64,000 nt of DNA, from assembly GCF_000316195.1 (NCBI RefSeq), contig NZ_JH994111.1, forward strand, positions 1,086,299 through 1,150,298, written 5' to 3'. A program made the translations under genes and the position numbers. This document shows, in pieces, positions 33,074 to 34,674 of this stretch (its first letter is position 1; every line of letters starts with the position of its first letter). The notes beneath the pieces are model-generated. The model saw only the letters and a list, made by a program, of their open reading frames with translations, did no database searches and had not been told where the DNA came from. The stretch is from Brachyspira hampsonii 30446 (lineage in GTDB: Bacteria > Spirochaetota > Brachyspiria > Brachyspirales > Brachyspiraceae).

Positions 33074-33081
33074 TATTAAAT

Positions 33082-33111
33082 AAAAGCATCTGTATTTTTG
33101 CAGATGCTTTT
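33082..33111 (+). terminator. terminator of deoD
   Basis: 11-bp perfect stem AAAAGCATCTG / CAGATGCTTTT with an eight-base loop, followed by ATTTATT, directly after the deoD stop codon. Confidence 0.88.
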
Positions 33112-33140
33112 ATTTATTAAAAGTAAAAAATTATAAATAC

Positions 33141-33168
33141 TTGACTTTTTATATTTTTTGTATATAAT
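33141..33168 (+). promoter_or_regulatory. strong promoter upstream of the DAHP synthase leader
   Basis: TTGACT (33141-33146), 16-base spacer, TATAAT (33163-33168). Transcription is expected near 33175, two bases or so before the ATG of the aromatic leader peptide and about 455 bases before the DAHP synthase start. Confidence 0.8.
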
Positions 33169-33176
33169 TTATTACT

Positions 33177-33248
33177 ATGAATGGTAATTTATTTTCAATT
33201 AATTTCAAAAGCATTTACGCTTATTACTTCTTCTATTATGGCGTTTAA
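33177..33248 (+). CDS. candidate Tyr/Phe leader peptide (23 aa) of an attenuator
   Basis: A 23-codon frame starts at the predicted transcription start. Its last ten codons read Y-A-Y-Y-F-F-Y-Y-G-V, so seven of eight consecutive codons are Tyr or Phe, and several use C-ending codons that are rare in this genome. The TAA lies inside a GC-rich hairpin (33239-33243 with 33251-33255, TGGCG / CGCCA), followed by ATTTTTC. Downstream is DAHP synthase, the first enzyme of aromatic amino-acid synthesis. This is the classic layout of translational attenuation. There is no ribosome site, so initiation would be leaderless. Chance runs of Tyr/Phe in AT-rich DNA are the alternative. Confidence 0.55.
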   Translation: MNGNLFSINFKSIYAYYFFYYGV

Positions 33249-33270
33249 GGCGCCAGAGTATCTATTTTTC
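33239..33270 (+). promoter_or_regulatory. candidate attenuator hairpin 1
   Basis: Stem TGGCG (33239-33243) / CGCCA (33251-33255), loop TTTAAGG, then a T-rich tract at 33261-33270. It overlaps the stop codon of the Tyr/Phe leader. An alternative pairing is possible between ACGC in the leader (around 33217-33220) and GCGT at 33241-33244, which would disrupt the stem. The T-tract is not immediate, so terminator strength is uncertain. Confidence 0.45.
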
Positions 33271-33368
33271 TAATCAAAACAAATTTATATATTTAAACTT
33301 TTATTAATACTTAATTTTTATATTTAAGTTCATCAATTTTTAACTATTTTATTTAAGGAGAATATATT

Positions 33369-33497
33369 ATGATAGTGGTAATGAAACCAAATGCAAAAGA
33401 AGAACATATTAATAATATTGTAGAAAGACTTAAAGAGGCAGGTCTCGGCATAAATAAAAGTATAGGAGTAGACTACACTGTAATAGGAATGGTCTGA
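33369..33497 (+). pseudogene. truncated duplicate of the DAHP synthase 5' end (42 codons)
   Basis: The frame is nearly identical to the first 42 residues of the DAHP synthase 262 bases downstream (both begin MIVVMKPNAKEEHINNI), and the ~55 bases before both starts are almost the same, including AAGGAG. At codon 43 it has TGA where the full gene has GGG; alignment continues for three more codons (DTS) and then stops. It has a good ribosome site and could be translated, but the product would be only part of the N-terminal regulatory domain. It may instead act as a long leader frame for the hairpin at 33519-33577. Confidence 0.85.
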
Positions 33498-33518
33498 GAT
33501 ACTTCTATTATTGCTAAT

Positions 33519-33577
33519 AAAAATTGCTCGTTTTAAGGCTCTGGTATTCTGACGAATACCAGACACTCGCAATTTTT
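33519..33577 (+). promoter_or_regulatory. candidate attenuator hairpin 2 (nested stems)
   Basis: An outer perfect 9-bp stem AAAAATTGC (33519-33527) / GCAATTTTT (33569-33577) encloses a perfect 10-bp stem TCTGGTATTC (33540-33549) / GAATACCAGA (33554-33563) with loop TGAC. It lies 22 bases after the stop of the truncated duplicate and 54 bases before the DAHP synthase start. Parts align with hairpin 1 (CGTTTTAAGGC, CAGA), so it is the duplicated partner. Confidence 0.65.
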
Positions 33578-33630
33578 ATATTTAAGTTCATCAATTTTTA
33601 ATTAACTATTTTATTTAAGGAGAATATATT

Positions 33631-34674
33631 ATGATAGTGGTAATGAAACCGAATGCTAAAGAAGAACATATTAATAATATTATAGAAAGACTTCAAAGTG
33701 CAGGTCTTGGTATTAATAAGAGTGTAGGAGTTGACTACACTGTAATAGGTATGGTTGGGGACACTTCAAAGATAGACAGAGATTTAATTTCATCTTTGCC
33801 AGGAGTATCTAAAGTATTAAAAGTGCAGGAGCCATTTAAAAGAGCAAACAGAGCGTTCAAAAAAGAAGACACTGTAGTTGATGTAAGCGGTGTAAAAATA
33901 GGGGAGGGAAAGCCTACAATTATTGCAGGACCTTGTTCTGTTGAAAGTGAAGAGCAGGTTATTAATATAGCTAAAAGTGTAAAGGCTTCTGGTGCTTCTA
34001 TACTTAGAGGAGGAGCATTCAAACCTAGAACTTCGCCTTATGCATTTCAGGGTTTAGCTTTAGACGGACTTAAAATATTAAAACTTGCAAGAGAAGAGGT
34101 TGGAATACCTATTGTAAGTGAGATTGTATCTATAAGGCATTTAGAAGATTTTGATAATACAGTGGACATGATTCAGATTGGGGCAAGAAACATGCAGAAC
34201 TTTGAACTTTTAAAAGAAGTAGGAAAATTAAAAAAGCCTATACTTTTAAAAAGAGGTTTATCAAGCACTATAGAAGAATGGCTTATGAGTGCCGAATATA
34301 TACTCAATCAAGGCAATGAAAATGTTGTGTTATGTGAGAGAGGCATAAGGACATTTGAAACTTATACTAGAAATACATTTGATGTAAGTGCGATACCTGC
34401 AATAAAACGTTTAAGTCATTTGCCTGTTATAGGAGATCCTTCGCATGCAAGCGGTAAATCATGGATGGCGCTTCCTCTAACATTAGCGGCTATTTCTGCA
34501 GGTGCTGATGGTATGATAATAGAAGTGCATAATGATCCAGAGCATGCTTTATGTGATGGTGCACAGTCTATAAAGCCTGATGTGTTTGCTGATATTATGG
34601 AATCTGTTAATATGATATCTGATACGGTTCAAAAAATAAAAGAAAAACATAACGGCAAAATTTATACTAAATAA
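33631..34674 (+). CDS. aroF: 3-deoxy-7-phosphoheptulonate (DAHP) synthase, type I-beta with N-terminal regulatory domain
   Basis: Condenses phosphoenolpyruvate with erythrose 4-phosphate, the first step of the shikimate pathway. 347 aa. Residues about 1-70 form the ferredoxin-like (ACT-like) domain that in Thermotoga-type enzymes binds Phe or Tyr for feedback control. The catalytic barrel follows with GPCSVESEEQ (about 95), RGGAFKPRTSPYAFQG, QIGARNMQN, KPILLKRG, VIGDPSHASGK and the metal-binding DGMIIEVH. Ribosome site AAGGAG. The leader contains a Tyr/Phe-rich frame, a stub duplicate and two hairpins, so transcription is probably attenuated. No other aro gene is adjacent. Confidence 0.96.
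   Translation: MIVVMKPNAKEEHINNIIERLQSAGLGINKSVGVDYTVIGMVGDTSKIDRDLISSLPGVSKVLKVQEPFKRANRAFKKEDTVVDVSGVKIGEGKPTIIAGPCSVESEEQVINIAKSVKASGASILRGGAFKPRTSPYAFQGLALDGLKILKLAREEVGIPIVSEIVSIRHLEDFDNTVDMIQIGARNMQNFELLKEVGKLKKPILLKRGLSSTIEEWLMSAEYILNQGNENVVLCERGIRTFETYTRNTFDVSAIPAIKRLSHLPVIGDPSHASGKSWMALPLTLAAISAGADGMIIEVHNDPEHALCDGAQSIKPDVFADIMESVNMISDTVQKIKEKHNGKIYTK

Follow-up and report, generated by a model that had tools for sequence, protein, structure and literature searches.

A conserved, predicted leaderless Tyr/Phe leader peptide ahead of aroF in Brachyspira and its putative terminator-independent control of a DAHP synthase gene

The aroF locus of Brachyspira hampsonii 30446

The window, i.e., the whole 64,000-nt stretch of the B. 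hampsonii 30446 genome that was analysed here, contains a gene for a DAHP synthase of type I-beta (aroF-like), which catalyses the first step in the synthesis of aromatic amino acids, together with a promoter, a short reading frame and two hairpins upstream of it (Table 1). The encoded protein is 92-99% identical to its orthologues in the genus, with 99% identity to the one of B. innocens. Both the promoter and the 23-codon frame with seven Tyr/Phe codons out of eight near its end, as described in an earlier note on this DNA, were found in place. The ATG at 33177 lies 8 nt past the -10 hexamer, and Tyr or Phe is encoded by 7/8 codons over leader codons 14-21, a density not reached by any ATG-initiated ORF when the intergenic region 33074-33360 was dinucleotide-shuffled 1000 times. 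The pattern TTGAC-N-TATAAT-N8-ATG was found at three sites only, two of which are aroF leaders. An Rfam scan of the window returned no match at the gathering score, T-box riboswitch included.

Table 1. Features of the aroF upstream region (positions are those of the window)
Feature	Position	Strand	Basis or remark
Promoter, TTGACT-16 nt-TATAAT	33141..33168	+	TTGACT 33141-33146, TATAAT 33163-33168; read from sequence
Leader peptide ORF, 23 codons, MNGNLFSINFKSIYAYYFFYYGV-stop	33177..33248	+	predicted leaderless; stop TAA 33246-33248
Hairpin H1 (AAGC/GCUU), start of control region	33209..33222	+	RNAalifold
Control codons 14-21, Tyr Ala Tyr Tyr Phe Phe Tyr Tyr	33216..33239	+	codon table, 15 orthologues
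Hairpin H2, stop codon in loop; 5' arm formed by last Tyr codons and Gly-Val	33234..33260	+	RNAalifold, folding
G-free, C-containing 69-nt tract	33259..33327	+	composition; candidate Rho-loading region
U-rich tail UCUAUUUUU 3' of H2	33261..33269	+	conserved with paralogue 1; weak or shifted with paralogue 2
Truncated aroF 5' copy (42 codons, TGA stop)	33369..33497	+	direct repeat; decayed tandem-duplication remnant
Dispersed palindromic repeat between remnant and aroF	33503..33580	+	similar copies in most Brachyspira genomes
DAHP synthase, type I-beta (aroF-like, paralogue 1)	33631..34674	+	above TIGR01361 cut-off

The leader had been placed ahead of the first gene of aromatic synthesis, and this order stands, but a decayed aroF copy and a palindromic repeat that had been missed intervene before the intact gene. 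A direct repeat of 166 nt (33340-33505 and 33602-33767) is 89% identical between its copies. The tandem duplication of the aroF 5' region spans 33313-33613 and 33340-33767, the first copy being truncated and stop-bearing. The same insertion is present in different states of decay in two further genomes (G023 and G016, leaders L003 and L004). Because the remnant and the palindromic repeat lie between leader and aroF, the distance from the leader stop to aroF is 382 nt here vs 97-174 nt in species without the insertion. The palindromic repeat itself forms a weak hairpin (terminator score -13), and aroF transcripts must either cross it or start elsewhere. It belongs to a family with many diverged members: most Brachyspira genomes have similar copies, roughly 72-83% identical over the element and some of them in tandem, at some 10-37 sites. 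By eye, no obvious leaders were seen before pheA and hisD in the B. hampsonii genome.

Conservation of the leader and its division between paralogues

The hairpin pattern GGCGTTTAARRCGCC has one or two matches per genome in 22 of the 26 Brachyspira genomes (reversed control, 0), and the loci examined adjoin DAHP synthase genes on their 5' side. A total of 37 distinct leaders from Brachyspira and one sister genus were read, and further leaders were found in two more sister genera of the same family (L050, L051). Promoter hexamers and their spacing are kept 5' of nearly all 37 leaders; the distance from the -10 hexamer to the ATG is 7-8 nt in every one, and none of them has a Shine-Dalgarno (SD) sequence or other ribosome-binding site ahead of the leader ATG. 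Given this constant distance, the transcript is predicted to start on the AUG or no more than about 3 nt away from it, which supports the leaderless initiation suggested earlier for the B. hampsonii frame, the 5' end being a predicted one. A search for a published transcription start-site map of Brachyspira found none.

As a rule, the genomes of these gut bacteria encode two paralogous DAHP synthases, 87-89% identical to each other. The leader of paralogue 1 ends in YAYYFFYYGV, with five Tyr and two Phe, and the amino acids of this control region are kept in 13 to 15 of the 15 sequences, which, being orthologues, are non-independent samples. Synonymous swaps (TAC/TAT and TTC/TTT) occur within these control codons, and the N-terminal leader codons drift more than the control region. 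Overall, the frame, its control codons, the promoter spacing and the stop-codon hairpin are preserved both within the genus and in the sister genera. Ahead of paralogue 2, the leader ends in FCFxFFFSFFGV, mostly Phe, and varies in length. B. pilosicoli has a mixed run (FLAYYFKSFYYFGV) before paralogue 2, and the sister-genus leaders have mixed Tyr/Phe runs as well. The C-terminal Gly-Val-stop is invariant among leaders.

These data also bear on whether the frame may be a chance product of an AT-rich region, where Tyr and Phe codons are common, or a decayed gene, as a decaying duplication lies nearby in the window. This reading has next to no probability and is already refuted by conservation: the leader is kept in the 15 paralogue 1 sequences and a second set stands ahead of paralogue 2, and the shuffles described above did not yield such a codon run. 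It is most likely, and well supported by codon content and conservation, that the Tyr/Phe leader senses the charging of Tyr-tRNA and Phe-tRNA, and it very probably serves as a starvation gauge ahead of the first enzyme of aromatic synthesis.

In the tree, the two Brachyspira paralogues group together in a single clade to which the sister genera do not belong, with weakly resolved inner Brachyspira branches. The simplest reading would be that a mixed ancestral leader split into a Tyr-rich and a Phe-rich leader after gene duplication, and such a split would make a clear case of regulatory subfunctionalisation. E. coli has Tyr- and Phe-controlled DAHP synthases, a parallel to the split between the Brachyspira leaders. 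In the B. pilosicoli group (L017, L018, L019, L040), paralogue 1 lacks a leader, lost in B. pilosicoli, and its surrounding genes are different.

Hairpins H1 and H2

RNAalifold, run on the 15 ungapped paralogue 1 leaders, found H1 and H2 unaided. H1 is intact in 15/15 of these leaders, with one pair varying from C-G to U-A and U-G. The stop-codon hairpin proposed earlier proved to be real: across the 15 orthologues, about 98% of the cells of H2 are paired, vs 37-52% when the partners are slid, and its folding energy is about -9 to -10 kcal/mol. The covariation score was equalled by 1 of 500 shuffles, and compensatory changes are present in both hairpins. In the sister genera, GGUGU/ACACC replaces GGCGU/ACGCC and the stop codon is UAG or UAA; leader L003 has UGA. 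The pairing probability of the 5' arm of H2 is about 1 with downstream sequence and 0.00 with upstream sequence.

Base-pairing in H2 uses the Gly and Val codons, which explains the invariant C-terminal Gly-Val. This bears on a further alternative, namely that the leader is a nascent-chain arrest peptide sensing free Tyr/Phe or a drug instead of tRNA charging. The invariant Gly-Val-stop would suit such a peptide, but it is already accounted for by H2, the residues of the run swap freely between Tyr and Phe, and their length varies in paralogue 2; an arrest peptide is thus very improbable.

Absence of a classical terminator and antiterminator

Terminators were assessed with a score of the d'Aubenton-Carafa type; on this score the deoD terminator just upstream reaches +16. 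H2 together with the U-rich tail scores -26 to -61 in the paralogue 1 leaders, -8 to -18 in B. pilosicoli and below zero in all but one (+2) of the paralogue 2 leaders, and on these scores the idea of H2 as a standard terminator was rejected. No other positive-scoring hairpin with a U tract was found between leader and aroF in 38/38 sequences, and the same program found no intrinsic terminator after three sister-genus leaders. An AU-rich terminator seen by eye downstream in L006 scores -30 and is not common to other leaders. As a candidate antiterminator, the pairing of codons 14-15 (ACGCU) with the H2 arm GGCGU is convincing in the window but was rejected, since L002 and L016 disrupt it and the paralogue 2 leaders lack it.

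The region had been likened to the pheA/trp-type layout, and this part of the claim is not supported, as H2 scores poorly and both a separate terminator and an antiterminator pairing partner are absent. For the same reasons, the proposal that a stall lets transcription reach aroF is unsupported as far as a classical switch is concerned. What stands of the attenuator claim is a conserved Tyr/Phe-coded leader whose codon content follows the paralogue; what does not is the classical pheA/trp layout.

The G-free tract and a putative Rho-dependent mechanism

Directly past H2, the transcript enters a rut-like tract that has C but is nearly or fully free of G, roughly 60 nt long across the leaders and 69 nt in the window (Table 1). 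Among the leaders, 84% have a tract with at most one G in 60 and 82% a G-free tract of at least 55 nt, vs none of 40 controls in either case, the controls being 40 de-duplicated Brachyspira 5' regions. Although these leaders, as orthologues, are non-independent, the tract persists with both paralogues and in B. pilosicoli despite diverged sequence; sister-genus leader L052 has no long G-free tract. A rho gene is present in the genome (646 bits). A high C:G ratio in RNA without structure is the hallmark of a rut site, and uORFs controlling Rho termination have a precedent in, e.g., toiL (PMC12121999).

The preferred reading, which stands at about an even chance, is that a leaderless leader peptide sensing tRNA charge gates aroF by premature, most likely Rho-dependent, termination. 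Translation would initiate on a leaderless transcript, directly at its 5' AUG. When Tyr/Phe is ample, the ribosome would read to the stop codon and depart, upon which H2 would close and the G-free tract would be left naked; RNA polymerase would then be terminated ahead of aroF, most likely via Rho as the presumed agent. With scarce Tyr/Phe, the ribosome would be held on the codon run beside the stop codon and would screen the start of the tract, and more transcripts would be expected to reach aroF, both the stalling and the direction of the response being predicted ones. Several points count against Rho gating. The tract lies mostly downstream of the stalled ribosome, for which full screening from Rho is not obvious; the long G-free tract is missing in L052, and the ilvB leaders are followed by a less G-poor one; the orthologues are non-independent; and the conserved U-rich tail of H2 in paralogue 1 fits a weak intrinsic terminator.

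The last of these points leads to the main rival to Rho gating, a masking of H2. Here, H2 and its U-rich tail would act as a single-hairpin attenuator, in which a stalled ribosome covers the 5' arm of a weak intrinsic terminator and lets polymerase pass. H2 can be extended to 11-12 pairs, with the final control codons making up the lower part; paralogue 1 leaders retain the tail UCUAUUUUU, directly 3' of which conservation drops; and B. pilosicoli leaders carry UCUUUUUUU tails. Set against this are the terminator scores, below zero in every paralogue 1 leader and almost every paralogue 2 leader, the lack of a U tract in sister-genus L050, and the footprint geometry of ribosome and polymerase, which could give the response the wrong sign. 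A non-starved ribosome close behind the polymerase also covers H2 while the polymerase is in the U-rich tail, so masking of H2 would not easily raise aroF expression upon starvation. Taken together, this mechanism is considered unlikely.

Improbable to a greater degree is a control of translation or mRNA stability, either through pairing of the free leader with the ribosome-binding site of aroF or through shielding of the mRNA 5' end by a stalled ribosome. uORFs of such a type are known (toiL, PMC12121999), the predicted pairing of the aroF SD is 0.75 on average, one third of it with control codons, and masking the control codons lifts SD accessibility from 0.24 to 0.39. Yet leader and aroF are anywhere between 97 and 393 nt apart, and translational control is made less likely by the codon choice of the aroF leader, which is not tuned to pairing with the aroF SD (mean z -0.27 vs synonymous controls; -1.74 for the ilvB leader). 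On this measure, anti-SD control of aroF through a selected pairing found no support.

A second leader without a terminator ahead of ilvB

An SD-led frame ending ...LNILLSILVNIL(L)-stop, with a run of Ile/Leu/Val codons, is conserved ahead of ilvB in 24 Brachyspira genomes (L212 at G000:C4:484535 and the same place in L217-L239). No positive-scoring terminator follows this leader in 24/24 genomes, and the tract after it is G-poor but less extreme than that of aroF, with 1.5 G per 60. Its codon choice is tuned to pair with the SD, as reflected in the z value given above. The ilvB leader also contains a conserved ATTCTCCT, which is perfectly complementary to the leader's own SD and nearly so to the ilvB SD. 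As a second, unrelated case, the ilvB leader supports the view that terminator-less amino-acid leaders are a genus-wide habit in Brachyspira.

Tyr/Phe leaders in other spirochaetes and relation to known systems

Upstream regions of DAHP synthase genes sampled from about 200 spirochaete genomes contain short Tyr/Phe-rich frames in many families, e.g., MKNITYAYYYYYYSHKSCRVLAK, MQRLFAARYFFYFYYFSFRW... and MNFIGYYYYLKFIT. Upstream ORFs beginning MTKIESRPDKKKMWEYNFF in several spirochaetes look like the ends of prephenate dehydratase-type genes and were not counted. Fifteen leaders outside the Brachyspiraceae were examined (L024, L128, L139, L149, L150, L152, L155, L157, L161, L166, L177, L124, L114, L027, L125), and all 15 are followed by a positive-scoring, strong terminator that sits 23-58 nt past the stop; in 9/15, an antiterminator partner beating shuffles (p <=0.05) precedes it. 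Seven (L139, L150, L152, L155, L157, L166, L177) have a TTGACA and an ATG 6-9 nt past the -10 (p <=0.03 vs shuffles), so about half of the 15 show leaderless-type spacing, and some other-family leaders carry an SD.

Since Tyr/Phe leaders occur in many families and leaderless-type spacing in these seven, attenuation by Tyr/Phe leaders, in many cases leaderless ones, seems to be common among spirochaetes, judging by the sequences compared. The view of the leader as a Brachyspira oddity is thereby not borne out: elsewhere among the spirochaetes such leaders have the classical layout, with a strong terminator and often an antiterminator, and Brachyspira has neither. It looks as if the Brachyspiraceae version has lost, or may never have had, the terminator. 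A wider proposal, put forward more tentatively than Rho gating of aroF itself, is that at both the aroF and ilvB leaders of Brachyspiraceae a codon-specific stall on a uORF (leaderless in the case of aroF) directly gates Rho, so that tRNA-charge attenuation may have been rebuilt on Rho in place of a terminator hairpin, while related spirochaetes kept the classical switch.

Like the trp, pheA and pheST attenuators, the Brachyspira leader is a short ORF with codons for the amino acid product before the cognate biosynthetic gene, with control codons in one hairpin arm and the stop codon in the loop; it differs in having no terminator, antiterminator or ribosome-binding site. With tnaC of E. coli and toiL (PMC12121999) it shares a short ORF that ends beside an unstructured tract with C>G and no intrinsic terminator at the control point. 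TnaC stalls via its peptide and free Trp, whereas the Brachyspira leader has a codon run for two amino acids and its Rho dependence is putative. Leader-peptide attenuation is known, as are leaderless leader peptides in mycobacteria, where poly-cysteine uORFs, as outlined in PMC9031893 (citing Canestrari et al. 2020), are leaderless short ORFs with a run of control codons that regulate downstream biosynthesis genes. Compared with that outline, Brachyspira differs in amino acid, phylum and the conserved stop-codon hairpin, and in that the start of aroF, which has a ribosome-binding site to itself, lies about 100-390 nt further downstream.

The open literature searched yielded no published Tyr/Phe leaders in spirochaetes, and no published amino-acid leader that keeps control codons and a stop-codon hairpin without a terminator was found. 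The leaders would thus represent a widespread level of regulation of aromatic amino acids in spirochaetes that apparently has not been described before. They offer a natural before-and-after comparison, as one and the same sensor is followed by a terminator in most spirochaete families but not in Brachyspiraceae, by which it becomes directly testable what the stalled ribosome acts on. Outside the spirochaetes, a T-box-like GGTGGTAACGCGG stretch was seen by eye before the DAHP synthase gene of Sinanaerobacter, a clostridial relative (L056), i.e., a tRNA sensor of another kind at the equivalent position.
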